The notes under the pieces are model-generated. The model worked only from the letters and a program-made list of their open reading frames with translations. It was not told where the DNA came from and made no database searches. This document shows, piece after piece, positions 5,851 to 21,668 of a stretch of 21,668 nucleotides of DNA. This stretch comes from a virus. Within the stretch, counting starts at the first letter, position 1. Each line of letters opens with the position of its first letter. Where the stretch lies: positions 1 through 21,668 of IMG/VR virus record IMGVR_UViG_3300017760_000125. The stretch is one strand, 5' to 3'. The position numbers were made by a program, and so were the translations under genes.

Positions 5851-7509
5851 ATGAGTGGATATAAAGATTATTTATCAGAAGAAATGCAAGGAGCTATAGA
5901 GACTCCTACTAAATCTAAAAGAACAAGACTTTCTCAGTTTAGGCACGGAGGATATCATAGTTCTATGGATGAGTTTTTTACTGCTGGTAAGAAATCTTAT
6001 GGAGTAAGAAATGTAGATGTAGCTAAGTTAGGAAAATATGGTAGTCCTGGAAGAGCAGGTAATCCTAGATTTGCTACAGCAGAATTTTTTGGTAAAACTT
6101 TTATGAGTAATGGTGGTGAAGTTATTACACCTGATAATATAGAAAAATTTAAAGAAACTATTAGACAAGCAGAAGGACTTAGACTTGAACCTTACAAAGA
6201 TAAAGATAAATATTCTGTAGGTTATGGTCACTTACTAGTAGATGGACCTACTGGTAATATTTCTGTTGATAGGATAGATAAAAAAGATGCAGAACAATTG
6301 TTAGAAAAAGATGTACAAGTAAGATTAAAAGAAGTTAATCGTTTACTGCCAGACTTTACAAACTTTCCTGAAGATGCACAACAAGCTATCTTTAGTGAGT
6401 ACTATAGAGGTTCAATAGGTCAGAGTGATGTTACTCGTGCACTTATAAATGCAGGTAGATACAAAGACGCAGCTAAAGAATTTTTAAATAATGATGAATA
6501 TAAAAATGCTGATAAAAATAAAATGGGTGGTATTAAAAAAAGAATGGAAGCTGTATCAGAAGCTTTGATGAACATGTCAGAAAAAAAATTTCTTAATGAT
6601 ACTATAGTTCCAGAAAGAAAACCATTTAGATATGGTGGTGGTGCTGACGCAGGAGCTGGTAGTGGCTTTGGTGGTGGCAATAAAGGCAATAAAGGTAATA
6701 AAGGTGGTAATAAAGGTGGTAATAAAGGTGGTAATAAAGGTGGAAGTTTAAGAGATAGTGGAATGGTACAAGGCTCATCTGGATATGGCCCAGCAGGTGC
6801 AGGTGGACAGGCACTAGGACCTAGTGGTAATCAAGGTGGTAATCAAGGTGGTAATCAAGGTGGTAATCAAGGTGGTGGACAAGACGCAGGTGCGAGTAGT
6901 TCAAGTGGAGATTCAGGAGCAGGTGCTGGAGTAAGTCAAGATGTAAGTGATTCAATAGGAGGAGGAGGAGCTGCAAATCCAAATCTACAACAAGGAGCAC
7001 AAGGAACTGTTAGTACCACTACTAAAAAAGCAGTTAAGAAAGCTAATAATTTACTAAATAATAGTATATATGGTACTTATAATTATACAACTAGTAATAC
7101 AGATTTTTTTGGCAACCCTATTGGCTCTACAATTACTGCTATTAATGAAGGTATTAAATCAGCTGGAAATGTAGGTGTATATGGTTCACTTTTTGGTAAC
7201 CCTACAAGTGCATCTTTAGGAATACAAAATACTTTAAGTCCTGAAAATGTACAAGGTTTAAATTTTGCAGGAACTGAAACAGATTTAGTAGGTAATTTAA
7301 ATACAAATGTTGGTAATTATAATATAGATGCTAATGTTAATTTTGGTGAGGATAGTGGTACACTTGGTATAAGTAGAGACTTTGATTTTAATATAGGTAA
7401 TCAAGATATTAATGCTACTCTCGGAGCACAAGTAGATGAAGAGGGAAATCTTTCACCTACTGTTGCAGTTAGTTTTAAAAAGGGCGGTCTGTTAGACAGA
7501 AGCCGATAA
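5851..7509 (+). CDS. Virion-associated or lytic muramidase (GH24, T4 lysozyme type) with Gly-rich repeats
   Basis: This 552-residue protein has a lysozyme domain at about residues 95-240. Residues 108-127 read EGLRL...YKD...YSVGYGH, matching the GH24 catalytic region of T4 lysozyme: Glu108 is the general acid, Asp117 matches Asp20, and Ser122 takes the place of Thr26, with one residue fewer between them. Before it lies an approx. 90-residue Gly/Lys-rich region of unknown role; after it a low-complexity linker (about 265-375) with NKGG and NQGG arrays, then an alternating polar/hydrophobic, Asn-rich, beta-strand-like C-terminus (about 440-552). An endolysin would normally be far shorter, so a virion-associated peptidoglycan hydrolase or tail-linked enzyme seems likelier. 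However, Hsp20 and holin-like genes follow, so a role in lysis remains possible. Muramidase domain: confident. Virion location: inference. Confidence 0.75.
   Translation: MSGYKDYLSEEMQGAIETPTKSKRTRLSQFRHGGYHSSMDEFFTAGKKSYGVRNVDVAKLGKYGSPGRAGNPRFATAEFFGKTFMSNGGEVITPDNIEKFKETIRQAEGLRLEPYKDKDKYSVGYGHLLVDGPTGNISVDRIDKKDAEQLLEKDVQVRLKEVNRLLPDFTNFPEDAQQAIFSEYYRGSIGQSDVTRALINAGRYKDAAKEFLNNDEYKNADKNKMGGIKKRMEAVSEALMNMSEKKFLNDTIVPERKPFRYGGGADAGAGSGFGGGNKGNKGNKGGNKGGNKGGNKGGSLRDSGMVQGSSGYGPAGAGGQALGPSGNQGGNQGGNQGGNQGGGQDAGASSSSGDSGAGAGVSQDVSDSIGGGGAANPNLQQGAQGTVSTTTKKAVKKANNLLNNSIYGTYNYTTSNTDFFGNPIGSTITAINEGIKSAGNVGVYGSLFGNPTSASLGIQNTLSPENVQGLNFAGTETDLVGNLNTNVGNYNIDANVNFGEDSGTLGISRDFDFNIGNQDINATLGAQVDEEGNLSPTVAVSFKKGGLLDRSR
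6679..6743 (+). repeat. Tandem repeat encoding NKG/NKGG
   Basis: Short copies of aataaagg(c/t) grade into 12-nt copies of aataaaggtggt. They encode an NKGN-to-NKGG array at about residues 277-298 of the muramidase-domain protein: a positively charged, flexible linker. Confidence 0.85.
6829..6876 (+). repeat. Tandem repeat encoding NQGG (four perfect 12-nt units)
   Basis: Four identical copies of aatcaaggtggt encode NQGG x4 at about residues 327-342. Only one base per unit (c for a) separates it from the NKGG array about 85 nt upstream, so the two arrays probably share an origin, with the charge switched from Lys to Gln. Confidence 0.85.
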
Positions 7510-7586: not shown

Positions 7587-8024
7587 ATGAACCTACCTAC
7601 AAATAGAAGAGGTCTCGTATTCAACGCAGACCCATTTAAAAACTTAACAGTTGGATTCGATTCTTTATTCGACCAACTATCTTCACTGTCAGACTTTGAA
7701 GCACCGAGTTATCCGCCTTACAATATTCGTAAGATTGGTAATGATGGTTACGAACTTGAGATGGCTCTAGCTGGATTCAGTAAGAGTGATGTCAATGTAG
7801 AAGTAAAAGAAGATACATTAACTGTGTCAGCTTCAAAAGAAGGTAAAGATGAAGAGAATAGTTTTCTTCACAGAGGAATAGCTAAAAGGTCTTTCACTCG
7901 TAAGTGGACTTTAGCAGAACATCTTGAAGTAAAGGATGCTGAATTGAAAGATGGTATTCTTTTAATTAAGATGAAACTTAATCTTCCAGAAGAAAAGAAA
8001 GCTAAAACAATAAAAATAAAATAA
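7587..8024 (+). CDS. Small heat-shock protein (Hsp20, IbpA-like)
   Basis: A 145-residue ATP-independent holdase of the alpha-crystallin family, expected to bind unfolding proteins in the host cytoplasm during virion assembly. It resembles bacterial IbpA/IbpB in layout: an N-terminal arm with a GFDSLF motif (IbpA has GFDRLF), YPPYNI before the alpha-crystallin domain, A-G-F in the first strands, and a (V/I)-x-(V/I)-type C-terminal tail (KTIKIK). The start follows AAAGGAG with good spacing. Hsp20 genes are known from marine cyanophages and other marine phages. It stands between the muramidase-domain gene and the lysis-like genes, set apart by structured gaps on both sides, so it may be its own translational unit. 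It uses noticeably more C-ending codons (TTC, GAC) than the virion genes to its left, consistent with separate acquisition or strong expression. Confidence 0.93.
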   Translation: MNLPTNRRGLVFNADPFKNLTVGFDSLFDQLSSLSDFEAPSYPPYNIRKIGNDGYELEMALAGFSKSDVNVEVKEDTLTVSASKEGKDEENSFLHRGIAKRSFTRKWTLAEHLEVKDAELKDGILLIKMKLNLPEEKKAKTIKIK

Positions 8025-8647: not shown

Positions 8648-8862
8648 TGTATTGGGTAATTACAGTAATGTTAATGTTTAATACTACAGATGTGGTAATG
8701 GAAAGAGAATATAAATTAAAACAATTTCAAGATGATTGGAGTTGTCACGAATTTATACATGAGAATAAAATTTATTTATTAAAACCACATGTTTTAGATT
8801 ATCCTAATCAATTAAAAAGTTTTGAATTTTTCTGTGAAAGTAGATACGCAGAAGAAGTCTAA
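8647..8862 (+). CDS. Small protein with hydrophobic N-terminus, possible lysis accessory
   Basis: A 71-residue protein of unknown family. The first 12 residues (MYWVITVMLMFN) are hydrophobic, like a short signal or anchor but without a clear lipobox; the rest is polar with two cysteines (Cys33 in WSCHEF and Cys64 in FFCES) that could form a disulfide if exported. The start shares its A with the holin-like stop (TAATG). It is the last rightward gene, and its stop overlaps the stop of the opposing gene. A spanin-like or lysis-control role is only a guess from position. Confidence 0.6.
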   Translation: MYWVITVMLMFNTTDVVMEREYKLKQFQDDWSCHEFIHENKIYLLKPHVLDYPNQLKSFEFFCESRYAEEV

Positions 8863-9239
8863 GGATTTAACCACTCTTTTGTGTTGTCTCTGGTAGATAT
8901 AAAACTATCAGAGATAGCCATCGTTGGTTCTTTTGGATAGACAAACATAATACATTTCTCAGTTACATCCTTATCTATTTTTATTTCTGCAGGTTTATAT
9001 CCTGCTCCTACTTCTAACAAATGAACACTCCGTTCAACATTACCTTTTAATTTATAAGCCTCACCTTTAATTTTATATCCAGGTTCTCTCCTATATACAA
9101 TAGGAAAACAACCTTGAGAAAAATCTTTTATATCAAAGTTACTGTGTAAAGTTTCACACTCTCCTATAAACTCGGACTCTTCTAAAATCCAGTTTAGTCT
9201 ATGTTGTTTCTTTAAAGTGCCGTATACAAAATATATCAT
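8859..9239 (-). CDS. Gamma-glutamylcyclotransferase-like (AIG2/GGCT) protein
   Basis: A 126-residue protein with the family signature YGTL at residues 6-9, FPIVYR at 45-50, a GEAY strand at 59-62 and a candidate catalytic Glu76 in LLEVGAGY. Enzymes of this fold cleave gamma-glutamyl amides, releasing 5-oxoproline from gamma-glutamyl amino acids or from gamma-glutamyl-lysine-type isopeptides. Length fits a single GGCT domain. The start shares one base with the preceding stop, and it is the last gene of the leftward arm. Homologues of this fold have been described as genomic partners of amidoligases (Iyer, Abhiman, Burroughs and Aravind), and an amidoligase gene begins this same arm about 11 kb away. 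Fold: fairly sure. Substrate: unknown. Confidence 0.8.
   Translation of the reverse strand: MIYFVYGTLKKQHRLNWILEESEFIGECETLHSNFDIKDFSQGCFPIVYRREPGYKIKGEAYKLKGNVERSVHLLEVGAGYKPAEIKIDKDVTEKCIMFVYPKEPTMAISDSFISTRDNTKEWLNP
8887..8914. terminator. Hairpin at the convergent junction
   Basis: TCTCTGGTAG (8887-8896) and CTATCAGAGA (8905-8914) form a 10-bp stem (one G-U in the rightward RNA) around an 8-nt AT loop, 25 nt past the last rightward stop and inside the end of the leftward GGCT-like gene. There is no U-tract on either strand, so it is not a classical intrinsic terminator. It could block read-through or protect 3' ends. Confidence 0.35.
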
Positions 9240-9476: not shown

Positions 9477-11411
9477 TTAATCCTCCTGTGGTGCAGTTAC
9501 ATCAACTAACTCACAGACACCACCAGTACATGCAAGTTCTTGAGAACCTGTAGTATTATCTTCTGATTCATAATCAACAAGCTTACCAAAGTCTATAGTA
9601 GTAGGCATATCTTTTTTCAATTCAAGATATTCCTTTCTTTCTATGTCTTGATAGGGAGCTTGTTTATATATGTGGTCAGTATAAGGTAAGAAACTAATAC
9701 CAGAAACCTCATCAAAGTATTTGTATACCCAAGCACCTACTTCCATCCACTCATCTTCTCTAACACTAATAGTAACAGATGGTTTATGTTCGCACCATTC
9801 TCTTTGATACTTTAACCACAACTCTAGTTGTTGTAAAGCTGACATATCATTTCTTGTTACTGAACCTGGGGGAGATAAAGTAGGAAAAGAAAACACAGTA
9901 ACTGAATCTGGTTTAGTTATGTCTGGTTCGTTAGGAACTCCTTGGTCAATCATAAGCTGAGTCAATGGGTCTTTCTTATCACATCTAACTGTTCTTATAT
10001 AGTAAGGATTATGTCTAGTATGAATACCAGAAGCACTATCAACTAACTGACTCACTGTACCACTAGGTTTTACACAAGTAATAGCAGTAGATTGATTTAT
10101 CTTTAGTCGTTTAGCAAACTCTTTGTTAGTATCTACAGCAACTTGTTTTAACTCAGCTAAGAATCCTTTGTCTGGATTGTTAGTAAGTTTACTATCCATG
10201 ATACCAGTAAGAGATACACCAAGTAGTCTTTCATCTTCTGTGTTCTGTTTCCATATCTTACGGATGTATTTAAAGTCAGTAAGAGTAGATTGAAATGTAC
10301 CAAGTATTGTGGCTAATCTAACTTTTTCTTTTAGCATCTTATTAGTATCGGGACTACGAACAACAACTTCTGTAAGATTACAGAATTGATATGGTCTTAA
10401 TATAATTTCTGAACAAGGATTAGTTCCAAACTCATGTTCACTATCTCGTCTTCCATTCTCTTTAGCTTTGTTAATCGCCGCTTGTCTGTTAAAGATACCT
10501 CTTTCACCAGACTTACTATCATACAAAGCTTTCCATTCAGACATAAATAAAGCCATGTCTGGTCGTCTTGCATAACAAGCAGAGTTATTAGCTAATGCTC
10601 TTTGTCCATTATCTAACCACCAAGAACCACTTTTAGCATTACGAAGTCTATCATCTTGTATGTTACTGAGTGATATCAAAGCTGACCTACGAACACCACC
10701 TACAACAACAACTTCTCCAATCTTACAAACTAAATCATGACACTCAAGAGCGTCAAGCTTTCTACCAGAAGCGTTTTTAAATGTGGTGATTGCAAAGTCA
10801 AACAAATCTACAAGAGGCTGTGGACCACTTGCACGACCACCAAATGTTTTAAGTCTAGCACCTGCAGGTCTTACTCTTGTTACATCTATCTTTGGAACTT
10901 GACCACCATATAACATACCAAGTAGTTCTCTTAAAGATTTTGCCCAACCAGTTCTACTATCTTGTACTACAACAACAGTATCACTATCCTCAAACTCTTC
11001 AGCAATAGTAGGTAGTTGTTCTACATAATCTCTTTCAACAGAAAAACCAACACCAGTACCACACATAAGTATATACATTATCTCATCAAAACTTCTTACA
11101 TCATTGATAGGCATATAACTACAATTATAACCAGCAGTGTGGTCTTTAACTAAAGCATTACCTGCTGTCATAAGTGCTCTCATCGAAGGCATAATACTTA
11201 AACTAAGGACTGCGTTTTCTAATTCATGTCTTAACTCTTTTGGTAAAGTATATTTATTATTATTTTTTAAATGCTCCTGCATAAAATCAAAGTATCTTGA
11301 TACAGTTTCATCCCAAGTTTCTCTTCGTTTTTCTGATTCAACAAACCTTGCATACCTAGATGCATGTATAAATTGTTGATAGGTCGTTGGTAGATAGTTG
11401 TTATTAGTCAT
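9477..11411 (-). CDS. nrdJ: Class II (adenosylcobalamin-dependent) ribonucleotide reductase, monomeric
   Basis: A 644-residue reductase that converts ribonucleotides (probably triphosphates) to deoxyribonucleotides for phage DNA synthesis. Visible elements: Cys97 (GYNCSYMPI), the NPCSEI loop with Asn331, thiyl-radical Cys333 and Glu335, the second active-site Cys344 (QFCNLTEV), and the C-terminal reducing pair Cys628-X4-Cys633 (ACTGGVCEL). This order matches monomeric RTPR of Lactobacillus leichmannii (739 residues) and marine phage class II enzymes. No glycyl-radical or metal-ligand set of class III or class I is seen. The start follows GGAG and overlaps the MazG-like gene by 8 nt. It needs cobalamin and a thioredoxin-type reductant from the host; no phage thioredoxin is in the window. 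Confidence 0.95.
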   Translation of the reverse strand: MTNNNYLPTTYQQFIHASRYARFVESEKRRETWDETVSRYFDFMQEHLKNNNKYTLPKELRHELENAVLSLSIMPSMRALMTAGNALVKDHTAGYNCSYMPINDVRSFDEIMYILMCGTGVGFSVERDYVEQLPTIAEEFEDSDTVVVVQDSRTGWAKSLRELLGMLYGGQVPKIDVTRVRPAGARLKTFGGRASGPQPLVDLFDFAITTFKNASGRKLDALECHDLVCKIGEVVVVGGVRRSALISLSNIQDDRLRNAKSGSWWLDNGQRALANNSACYARRPDMALFMSEWKALYDSKSGERGIFNRQAAINKAKENGRRDSEHEFGTNPCSEIILRPYQFCNLTEVVVRSPDTNKMLKEKVRLATILGTFQSTLTDFKYIRKIWKQNTEDERLLGVSLTGIMDSKLTNNPDKGFLAELKQVAVDTNKEFAKRLKINQSTAITCVKPSGTVSQLVDSASGIHTRHNPYYIRTVRCDKKDPLTQLMIDQGVPNEPDITKPDSVTVFSFPTLSPPGSVTRNDMSALQQLELWLKYQREWCEHKPSVTISVREDEWMEVGAWVYKYFDEVSGISFLPYTDHIYKQAPYQDIERKEYLELKKDMPTTIDFGKLVDYESEDNTTGSQELACTGGVCELVDVTAPQED

Positions 11412-18567: not shown

Positions 18568-18849
18568 CTAAGCCCCTAAATCTGTTAGTAATCTCTCTAG
18601 TAAATCGCCGTCAGTACAATGATTGTAATCTTTTATGTTTATCAAATCGTCTGACGGACAAGCATTCTCATTAAAGAAATCAATTAGTTTTTCTTTGTAG
18701 ATTTCTATGTCTACCTCGTTATAGATTATTCTTTTAAGAATTTCTATTTCTTCTGGTGAGAAATACTTTTCATACTCAGTATAAATTTCATCTCGCCACA
18801 TATCTAATTTGTTTTCTAGATATTCTTGGTGGTGTTCACAACTCATCAT
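18568..18849 (-). CDS. Hypothetical acidic protein (93 aa)
   Basis: Unrecognised. Strongly acidic and helical: MMSCEHHQEYLENKLDMWRDEIYTEYEKYFSPEEIEILKRII and a second half with LLERLLTDLGA at the end. It has a Cys-His-His near the N-terminus and two further cysteines (NACPS, NHCTD), not in an obvious zinc pattern. Two adjacent ATGs (18849, 18846) follow AAAGGG. It overlaps the end of the membrane protein gene upstream by 14 nt. A small, acidic, early-type phage protein could act as an inhibitor of a host factor, but nothing here shows a target. Confidence 0.7.
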   Translation of the reverse strand: MMSCEHHQEYLENKLDMWRDEIYTEYEKYFSPEEIEILKRIIYNEVDIEIYKEKLIDFFNENACPSDDLINIKDYNHCTDGDLLERLLTDLGA

Positions 18850-19039
18850 CTGCCCTTTCTAGTTTATACACCTCTACTGGTATTGTTTCAACTGTATTAA
18901 TTGCATTAGGTATTTGTTTTTCTATTGTGTAAATGTCAGCAACTTCTTTATTGTAATCTAACATCACTCCAACTATTGCAATCAAACCCCAAGCCCATAC
19001 TAATCCAAGCATGAACCAGACTACTGTATATTTATTCAT
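18836..19039 (-). CDS. Small membrane protein (67 aa)
   Basis: One strong N-terminal transmembrane helix (about residues 5-28: TVVWFMLGLVWAWGLIAIVGVML) followed by a roughly 38-residue polar, mostly acidic tail (YNKEVADIYTIEKQ...). With a short Lys-containing N-terminus, the tail could be in the periplasm or the cytoplasm; the start is not a cleavable signal I recognise. The ATG overlaps the stop of the tiny ORF upstream (ATGA), with GGAGG about 14 nt upstream. A role at the host inner membrane, such as superinfection exclusion, would fit but is not shown. Confidence 0.7.
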   Translation of the reverse strand: MNKYTVVWFMLGLVWAWGLIAIVGVMLDYNKEVADIYTIEKQIPNAINTVETIPVEVYKLERADDEL

Positions 19040-19116
19040 ACTGCCCCATATCCTCCATTTAAAATGTTATATATAAATATAATAAGTCCTATAATATTTT
19101 CAACACTTGTATCCAT
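19036..19116 (-). CDS. Tiny membrane peptide (26 aa)
   Basis: Linked on both sides by overlapping codons: its ATG shares the A of the preceding TAA, and its TGA overlaps the next ATG. The sequence MDTSVENIIGLIIFIYNILNGGYGAV has a short hydrophobic helix (IIGLIIFIYNIL). No strong Shine-Dalgarno. It resembles the 28-residue peptide at 17856-17942 in size, topology and arrangement but not in sequence. It bridges the only gap between two genes here, which supports it. Confidence 0.5.
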   Translation of the reverse strand: MDTSVENIIGLIIFIYNILNGGYGAV

Positions 19117-19286
19117 TATATATAACCCTCACCTATCATAAAAGAATACTCATCATTAAACACATGCTCTTGAGACTCACCATATTTATTTACAAAATTT
19201 TTTCTTGCTTCATCTACTTGCATTGTGTCTATTAAGTAATGAGAATACTCTTGCATTTCCATTAACCAATTTTTTACTCCACTCAT
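19116..19286 (-). CDS. Hypothetical protein (56 aa)
   Basis: Begins MSGVKNWLMEMQEYSHYLIDTMQVDEARKNFVNKYG and ends with FMIGEGYI. It is a helical, slightly acidic small protein with no recognised domain. AAAGGAG is 5-6 nt before the ATG, one of the best ribosome sites in this cluster, so the gene is credible despite its length. It is followed without a gap by a 26-residue ORF (TAATG). Confidence 0.72.
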   Translation of the reverse strand: MSGVKNWLMEMQEYSHYLIDTMQVDEARKNFVNKYGESQEHVFNDEYSFMIGEGYI

Positions 19287-19477: not shown

Positions 19478-20356
19478 TTATTTTTTGTTGTTTCCATAGT
19501 TATATAAGTCGTGAACAAAGATTCCCATACCAACAGGATTACTTTCAGCAACCTCAATCATTTCATCAACTGTTAAATCACATAACATCTCATCAGATAA
19601 TGGTTGTCCATTAGCATATTCAGTATCTAAGTTATCATCATAAGCAAGGCTACTATCCCAACTTGTATTGTAATATTTATCATTATAATTACCATACATA
19701 TCATAGTCAGATAACCAACCAGATTTTTTCTTAACAACTTTTTTACCTAAGTCAATGTCATAGTCATAACCAACACCACGACTGATAGAATAAGTATTGG
19801 ATACCCAACCTACATTCTTAACATCTTTACCCTCGCCTTGATTAATGATAGTAAACTCTTGGGTCTTACTATCAAGAAACAATAACTTGTCCGAGCCAAT
19901 CAAATCCTCAAGTGATTCAGTCCACTCTGCATTGTAAAGTAAGTTAGGATTGTTAAGTAATTGAGGTCTTACCACCCACTTAATAAATTGGTGGGTGTCC
20001 GACTTATTCTTATCAATCATTGGTGTTGGTAGCTTTGCCCCATTATGCATTACCCATAAATCTCTATCAGCACCATTCTCACCTTTACGCAAGACTTGAA
20101 ATGGGTGAGATAAATCTCGACAAGTACTACCTGCTGTTGTAAATCTGAAATGAATACCAACTTGAGTATTCAAATCTTTATAGTCCTTCCACATTTTATG
20201 TATATCTTGGAAGTCTTTTGGTACTATCTTATGGGTATGTACCTTACCTCTATTGTAAAACATAACCCCAAACCCGTCTGAATTATTTTGATAAGCACAC
20301 TCCATTAAATTCAAATCGAGTTCTTTAGGGTTGTTTGCTTTTATTATTAAACACAT
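19478..20356 (-). CDS. Class II glutamine amidotransferase (Ntn-type)
   Basis: A 292-residue protein whose Cys2 would become the N-terminal nucleophile after Met removal. It has the class II glutaminase pattern: MCLIIK start, NNSDGFGVMFY (24-34), HFRFTTAGSTCRDLSHPF (69-86) and MHNG (103-106). These enzymes release ammonia from glutamine and normally pass it to a partner synthetase; no such domain is fused here, and the last 130 residues (Tyr/Asn/Asp-rich) are unassigned. The amidoligase gene ends just 50 nt upstream on the same strand, making it the obvious partner; this pairing is known in phage amidoligase operons. Start ATG at 20356 follows GAAAGGAAAG and is fixed by the need for Cys2. The substrate is unknown. 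Confidence 0.85.
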   Translation of the reverse strand: MCLIIKANNPKELDLNLMECAYQNNSDGFGVMFYNRGKVHTHKIVPKDFQDIHKMWKDYKDLNTQVGIHFRFTTAGSTCRDLSHPFQVLRKGENGADRDLWVMHNGAKLPTPMIDKNKSDTHQFIKWVVRPQLLNNPNLLYNAEWTESLEDLIGSDKLLFLDSKTQEFTIINQGEGKDVKNVGWVSNTYSISRGVGYDYDIDLGKKVVKKKSGWLSDYDMYGNYNDKYYNTSWDSSLAYDDNLDTEYANGQPLSDEMLCDLTVDEMIEVAESNPVGMGIFVHDLYNYGNNKK

Positions 20357-20406
20357 AGTTTACTTTCCTTTCATTGTTATTATTATTATTTAAAGTTAAA
20401 AGTTTG

Positions 20407-21668
20407 TCAGCCATTACTTACATTATCGAATTGTCTTGATACATTTCTACTTGGTGTACCGAGTACATATCCATTAGTAATTAACCAACTCCAGAAATTA
20501 GGATACTCACTTCTGTTTTCTGGTTTCCTAATATAAGATAGAAAAGATTTATAATTTAAACTTTGCTCTCTTATAGAAGATTGTTTTAAGTATTGTATCA
20601 GTCCGTCAGTAAACTCCAATGCCCTCATAAAGCCATGCTCTGATACATTACTCTTAAATATTCTTAACTCGACTGTGTTTCTAGGTACTGTATTTACTGA
20701 CTCATACCTATCATCACTTTGATACTGTCCGTCAGATATCTTTTTTGTTTCTGATTTACACCACCTACCCATAGTGCGACCTGCAATATCTTCAATAAAC
20801 CTAGCATTTTTCTTATCATTAATAAATACTAACAACTTTCCAATCTCTAGTGGTGTTAGTGCTTTTTTATTAATATGTATATGCAATCCAGCACAAGTAG
20901 TATTCCACCCTTTAACATAGGTACTCCCATTATCATCAGTCCAATAATCACTATTAAACATTTGACTAAACCTATCTTTTAAAAATTTGAATGTACTCGG
21001 AGCAGTACATATCTCAAACCCACCATTACCCTCATCAAGTGAGCCGTCTCTCTTACATAGAAACCAATTATTATGCTCATGTAAAGTTTCTGGAAAGTCA
21101 TAAGGCATACTATTTCTAGCCATAACTTCCAATTCTACACCATACAATAAAGATTTACTAGAATATAAATCCTTATCAACTGTCTCATCTTCCCTACATT
21201 GTACACCAATCTCATCATGTACAGGGTATGTATAGTTTTTACAATACCTTTCATGCTCATAACCACACTCCTCATCTTCATAATAATCATCTTCCTCTTC
21301 TCTACGACTATCAGCACATAGTGAGCAACAATCATAATCACTATCATAATCATTTTCATCTCTTACCTCATCACAACTCGGACAGTTATAAACATCATCA
21401 TCAAATATGTTATATATTAACCAATTTTCAATAGCATGATATAACTTACTGATTTTAATAGCTAACTTATCTTCACACTCATAAGCAAGATTACCTCTAT
21501 GATTATCTTCATCATATATATTCTCATTATATAATTTTATTTTATTTTTAATATACCATAATCTTTGCAGTATTTCCTGATTATGCCAAAAACTTCTAAT
21601 AACTATATCTTGATATTCGACTGTTTCATATAATTCAGTAAGGTTTACATCTTCATTTTTATATAATC
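20407..21668 (-). CDS. Amidoligase family protein with N-terminal Cys-rich module (5' incomplete)
   Basis: The frame is open from the right edge of the window to the TGA at 20407, at least 419 residues; the first possible start inside is a TTG at 21147 (246 residues), rejected because the frame continues without a stop for over 500 bp above it. The C-terminal ~245 residues carry the COOH-NH2 ligase (Amidoligase_2) pattern: GVELEV, RDGSL...GGFEICTAPS, CAGLHIHIN, and RFIEDIAGR. The fold belongs to the glutamine synthetase/GCS superfamily and joins a carboxylate to an amine using ATP. The upstream part has CPSC and CCSLC pairs about 15 residues apart, more Cys/His after them and many Asp/Glu, likely a zinc-binding module. 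A glutamine amidotransferase follows 50 nt later. Substrate unknown; peptide tagging, envelope modification or small-molecule synthesis are options. Confidence 0.8.
   Translation of the reverse strand, partial: LYKNEDVNLTELYETVEYQDIVIRSFWHNQEILQRLWYIKNKIKLYNENIYDEDNHRGNLAYECEDKLAIKISKLYHAIENWLIYNIFDDDVYNCPSCDEVRDENDYDSDYDCCSLCADSRREEEDDYYEDEECGYEHERYCKNYTYPVHDEIGVQCREDETVDKDLYSSKSLLYGVELEVMARNSMPYDFPETLHEHNNWFLCKRDGSLDEGNGGFEICTAPSTFKFLKDRFSQMFNSDYWTDDNGSTYVKGWNTTCAGLHIHINKKALTPLEIGKLLVFINDKKNARFIEDIAGRTMGRWCKSETKKISDGQYQSDDRYESVNTVPRNTVELRIFKSNVSEHGFMRALEFTDGLIQYLKQSSIREQSLNYKSFLSYIRKPENRSEYPNFWSWLITNGYVLGTPSRNVSRQFDNVSNG

Follow-up and report, generated by a model that had tools for sequence, protein, structure and literature searches.

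Two adjacent leftward genes lie at one end of the window, i.e. the whole 21.7 kb stretch of viral DNA analysed here (record IMGVR_UViG_3300017760_000125, 33% G+C). Both open reading frames are found between positions 19478 and 21668, where the initial annotation had placed a ligase-type gene and a glutaminase gene; they encode a predicted amidoligase and a glutamine amidotransferase (GATase). In order of transcription, the minus-strand arm consists of the amidoligase, the GATase, a 56-aa protein, a 67-aa protein and several small genes. Further on come a gene at the position of the ssDNA-binding protein gene of Pelagibacter phage HTVC115P, the primase, the polymerase and further genes including endonuclease I. 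The last part holds a ribonucleotide reductase (RNR) of the B12-dependent type, a small gene and, at the end, a gamma-glutamylamine cyclotransferase (GGACT). The location of the pair among small genes ahead of the replication genes stands as first described; its expression early in infection is presumed. The primase/helicase of the window is 73% identical to its counterpart in HTVC115P, and for the terminase, taken from the contig of a close relative (L004), identity with HTVC115P is 79%. Collectively, these identities place the phage among the HTVC115P-like marine podoviruses, relatives of the HMO-2011-type group; its host is probably a SAR11 bacterium.

The first gene (20407..21668, minus strand) is assigned to the Amidoligase_2-like COOH–NH2 ligases of GS fold on the basis of Pfam, motifs and predicted fold. 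Its reading frame is truncated at the 5' end by the end of the contig; 419 aa can be read, and full-length relatives have about 450–470 aa. Against Pfam Amidoligase_2 (PF12224), the profile named for checking in the initial annotation, the protein scores 20.8 bits (E = 3.9e-4), 1.2 bits below the curated cut-off of 22. Ten of 24 family members match the same profile at E ≤ 1e-3, the best at 1.3e-6. Membership of PF12224 is apparent at the level of the family and marginal for the window protein itself. Matches to PHROG families include phrog_16683 (2e-12) and phrog_2443, named ‘amidoligase enzyme’ (1.7e-5). In an alignment of 24 members, 30–81% identical to the window protein, the motifs GxExE (G176/E178/E180), KxDGSL (K205/D207–L210), GFE (G216–E218), GxH (G260/H262) and ELRIF (E333–F337) are invariant. 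They comprise the acidic, His and Arg residues E178, E180, E218, H262, E333 and R335, which from knowledge of the family we take to have metal and ATP roles; the motifs also align with the amidoligase of Sinorhizobium phage phiM6. A CxxC...C pattern in the N-terminal part of the alignment is a putative zinc ribbon. The AlphaFold model (pLDDT 80.6) matches YbdK, the gamma-glutamylmethylamide synthetase GmaS, GS, Dop and PafA; the top 34 PDB matches all belong to the same GS-like superfamily, with a best E of 1.2e-4 and low TM-scores (about 0.3). A GS-like fold is thereby predicted. A scan of a collection with one genome per prokaryote species gave no cellular relatives of the amidoligase, and thus no cellular operon is at hand to reveal the substrate.

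The second gene (19478..20356, minus strand) starts 50 bp downstream of the amidoligase and would encode a stand-alone class II (Ntn) GATase of 292 aa, as judged from invariant residues, predicted fold and adjacency. Cys2, Arg71, Asn105–Gly106 and Asp120 are invariant in 23 homologues, as are the HFRF and MHNG motifs, which the initial annotation had listed together with Cys2; in the TTAG motif of the same list, the second T and the G are invariant and the rest is not. Profile matches are weak (E = 0.011 for the window protein against GATase_4; E ≤ 0.01 in 13 of 23 members, best 4e-6). The predicted structure, of moderate quality (pLDDT 69.7), matches class II glutaminases, namely GlmS (E 1.1e-5), PurF glutaminase domains and the glutaminase-like EgtC, which points to an Ntn-hydrolase glutaminase fold. 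The marginal Pfam scores of both enzymes suggest divergent subfamilies. Profile comparison with solved structures gave nothing useful for either enzyme, and neither NCBIfam nor PADLOC yielded a helpful name for any protein of the window. Taken together, the PF12224 and PHROG matches, the invariant residues and the predicted folds uphold the ligase-type and glutaminase identities proposed from the sequence alone.

The pairing of the two genes, likewise proposed at the outset, recurs widely. By an automatic test, they are adjacent in 104 of 107 loci that have the amidoligase and enough downstream sequence; several of these loci are overlapping fetches of one contig and the relatives are phylogenetically non-independent, and independent cases are thus fewer (81 distinct GATase loci). 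Among the three exceptions, the GATase is the next annotated gene in ctgrD200 and the next gene in Mycobacterium phage Marvin, and only a Microcoleus phage is without a recognised GATase. Comparison of the window with three relatives gives dN/dS values of 0.11–0.33 for the amidoligase and the GATase, indicating that both are selected genes and not chance reading frames. Purifying selection on the two is looser than on the primase.

A third enzyme, the GGACT (AIG2-like, 126 aa; 8859..9239, minus strand), is the last gene of the arm that the pair opens. Its match to PF06094 (E = 7.6e-11) is above the curated cut-off, and it carries a YGTLKK motif and a conserved Glu ahead of GAGY. Outside the lineage of the window, 40 distinct loci extend 2.5 kb or more beyond the GATase, and all 40 have GGACT 1.8–4.2 kb downstream of that gene; within the lineage, it was found in all nine records searched (at least 13.7 kb each), elsewhere in the genome than the pair. 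As with adjacency, these counts come from non-independent relatives. In the four records of the lineage that were read, GGACT stands behind the RNR, as in the window. GGACT is absent from 11 of 11 HMO-2011-type control genomes without the pair. The twelfth control, phiM6, has GGACT together with a fuller annotated cassette (GGCT, GATase, ATP-grasp, amidoligase) beside the primase. GGACT is missing from the OM43 phages MEP401 and MEP402, from ctgrD200 and from Marvin, all of which have the pair, and so it is not essential to the pair. The versions of GGACT in the window's lineage are 87–96%, 64% or 46–48% identical to that of the window, and the divergent versions (window 8859–9239; L212, L213, L214, L215) share the site behind the RNR, as if replaced in place.

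Two small proteins accompany the pair. A conserved ‘KNW’ protein of 56 aa (MSGVKNWLMEMQEYS...; 19116..19286, minus strand) has close homologues beside the pair and distant ones (≤40% identity) elsewhere; it is absent from the 12 HMO-2011-type control genomes. Distant relatives (≤40% identity) occur in the phage contigs L169–L178, which have no amidoligase–GATase pair in the stretch read. An exclusive partnership of the KNW protein with the pair, considered as a candidate, is weakened by such relatives in phages without the pair. The second protein (67 aa; 18836..19039, minus strand) has one hydrophobic, predicted transmembrane (TM) segment, whose strongest stretch reaches 2.3 on the Kyte–Doolittle scale, and a conserved C-terminal tail, IPVEVYKLER. 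A search of viral contigs found its homologues only on contigs that carry the module or end before it; the control genomes gave one marginal match, with an internal stop, in HTVC115P. Phage records of 50–60 kb also carry the pair and both small proteins, and a search of these records gave no relative of the primase of the window. Sharing of the block with phages of this kind suggests that it moves between phages. Outside the window's lineage, a strongly hydrophobic protein of 40–80 aa directly follows GGACT in 34 of 36 loci, as compared with 19 of 224 for other genes there. In most of these lineages, the proteins following GGACT (e.g. L032 13866–14033) apparently have two TM segments and a central N-P turn; one such hydrophobic protein was tested and gave no PHROG match.

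Amidoligase, GATase and gamma-glutamyl cyclotransferase, all three present in the window and its longer relatives, also occur in the early region of phiEco32, LUZ24, RIO-1 and PSA-HP1, in what is called a ‘peptidoglycan modification cassette’ (PMC5498523; PMC3890496). Those cassettes differ by an extra ATP-grasp enzyme and a second COOH–NH2 ligase, and their proteins are only remotely like those of the window. Neither of the two additional enzymes was recognised among the long reading frames of the window's arm. PF14395, the profile of the second ligase, had no match in 11 pair-bearing records and the same model also missed RIO-1, and an ATP-grasp search with PF14398 missed all positive controls. 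In phiM6, an HMO-2011-type phage, GGCT, GATase and Amidoligase_2 genes lie beside the primase and both enzymes can be aligned with those of the window; its annotation differs by an ATP-grasp gene, a second class II GATase, a C26 peptidase, an aminotransferase and another gene order. In the Zobellviridae MEP401 and MEP402, the pair has already been described (PMC10580990). It is adjacent, in the same order and ahead of primase, helicase and polymerase, as in the window, with identities of 28.8–31.0% (amidoligase) and 28.8–29.5% (GATase); unlike in the window, no GGACT, TM or KNW protein was found. The best reading is that the module is a reduced, glutamine-fed relative of the amidoligase cassettes of phiEco32, LUZ24, RIO-1 and phiM6.

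Marvin, of a distant host and phage type and without GGACT, resembles the window in having an amidoligase with N-terminal zinc-ribbon-like cysteines (gp105; L010 4767–6128) followed by a GATase (gp106; 6208–7107). Many Marvin-type records label gp105 ‘glutamine amidotransferase domain’; gp105 matches the amidoligase family, and the glutaminase signature sits in gp106. The mention of an amidoligase in the Giles interaction paper concerns the host CTP synthetase and is irrelevant here. In bacterial wall amidation by MurT–GatD and AsnB/LtsA, a glutaminase feeds the amidation of peptide carboxylates. The likeness to the phage pair is one of function, not homology: GatD belongs to the class I glutaminases, and the ligases have other folds.

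Class II glutaminases liberate ammonia, GS-type ligases make an amide by way of an acyl-phosphate, and GGACT-type enzymes cleave gamma-glutamyl amides (gamma-glutamylamines) to 5-oxoproline. By homology, the GATase would free ammonia from glutamine (step 1), and the GS-fold amidoligase would activate a carboxylate with ATP and add ammonia or an amine to give an amide (step 2). This predicted chemistry, taken by itself, is highly probable. From its co-occurrence, GGACT may act in the same pathway (step 3) and cleave a gamma-glutamyl amide, thereby reversing, trimming or deprotecting; extended in this way, the scheme is still fairly probable. In a weaker fourth step, the substrate would be an envelope peptide of the host that bears glutamyl or carboxylate groups, or else some peptide handled at the membrane, the small TM proteins would position the enzymes there, and the host surface or wall would be altered during infection, e.g. 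against superinfection. The cyclotransferase and the small membrane proteins suggest a gamma-glutamyl-linked substrate, possibly in the envelope. The envelope step draws on these membrane proteins and on older suggestions that the wall is modified to ward off superinfection, found in passages of PMC5498523 and PMC10580990 that cite Iyer and colleagues. Two observations count against it: the relative L006 has the 56-aa protein and lacks the 67-aa TM protein, and no hydrophobic protein follows GGACT in the four records of the window's lineage that were read. With its envelope substrate, the complete four-step mechanism is possible but tentative. A more elaborate version, in which amidoligase, GATase, GGACT and the small membrane proteins would form a membrane-associated, reversible gamma-glutamyl/amide tagging system, with the single-TM IPVEVYKLER protein as membrane adaptor or phage-encoded substrate, is distinctly improbable.

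The place given to the envelope in step 4 could instead be taken by host proteins, whose side-chain or C-terminal carboxylates the amidoligase would amidate or conjugate, redirecting the protein, with GGACT trimming gamma-glutamyl adducts. Among the structural matches are two enzymes that act on proteins, PafA (Pup ligase) and Dop (depupylase); the putative zinc ribbon could bind protein, and peptide-tagging roles were predicted for relatives (Iyer 2009, as quoted in later papers). Yet the closest structural matches are the small-molecule ligases YbdK, GmaS and GS, nothing points to a particular protein target, and this reading does not account for the small membrane proteins. Protein modification is somewhat unlikely on this balance, though not far behind the envelope reading. 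The same closest matches, YbdK and the gamma-glutamylmethylamide synthetase, speak for synthesis of a gamma-glutamyl amide or another amidated metabolite, in an auxiliary metabolic or signalling role and with recycling by GGACT, an enzyme type established to act on gamma-glutamylamines. GS-type enzymes, however, use free ammonia or amines, so that the presence of a dedicated glutaminase hints at another task; the small membrane proteins found with the pair are again unaccounted for, and small-molecule synthesis is just as unlikely as protein modification.

Possibly, only the amidoligase–GATase pair is a functional unit, with GGACT and the small proteins as hitch-hikers in the marine phage gene pool. 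The four annotated phages with the pair and no GGACT, the distant KNW relatives without the pair and the non-independence of the relatives agree with this. Against it, GGACT persists at two distinct locations in the genome, with divergent versions within the window's lineage, and none of the 11 controls that lack the pair has it; hitch-hiking is improbable. Amide-bearing bases occur in phages and the pair shares its arm with replication genes, but an amide made on a carboxylated base, for DNA-base modification or anti-restriction, is extremely improbable: no base-modifying partner was recognised in any reading frame of the window, nor in the early arms read in L004 and L006. The initial annotation had listed a DNA base among the candidate substrates.

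Systems of this kind have been predicted since 2009 (Iyer 2009, as quoted in later papers), and further examples are known from the OM43 phages MEP401/402, Marvin, LUZ24, RIO-1 and phiM6; the link drawn initially to the amidoligase-operon predictions of Iyer, Aravind and colleagues holds. A survey of HMO-2011-type phages (PMC9038755) makes no mention of amidotransferases or cyclotransferases. As far as the literature consulted shows, new features are the occurrence of the pair in HTVC115P-like phages, its pared-down composition with a cyclotransferase that is kept at a distance, and a small membrane protein that travels with the pair. The link between GGACT and the pair, and the hydrophobic protein that usually follows GGACT outside the window's lineage, are likewise new. 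The function of phage amidoligase cassettes is still called unexplored in the literature. The window's lineage offers a reduced version, with two core enzymes and a cyclotransferase, and a clear contrast of presence and absence between related phages, so that three or four small genes, in place of a seven-gene cassette, are enough to test the function. The phages concerned are related to ones whose hosts are among the most abundant bacteria of the sea.

Other genes of the window are of separate interest. The RNR (9477–11411) is a single-gene, B12-dependent type enzyme; in HTVC115P, its place is taken by a two-gene alpha/beta reductase. The phage also encodes an Hsp20 small heat-shock protein (7587–8024), as do HTVC115P and HTVC104P. 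In a 552-aa protein (5851–7509), a phage lysozyme domain is joined to a long repeat region rich in glycine and asparagine.
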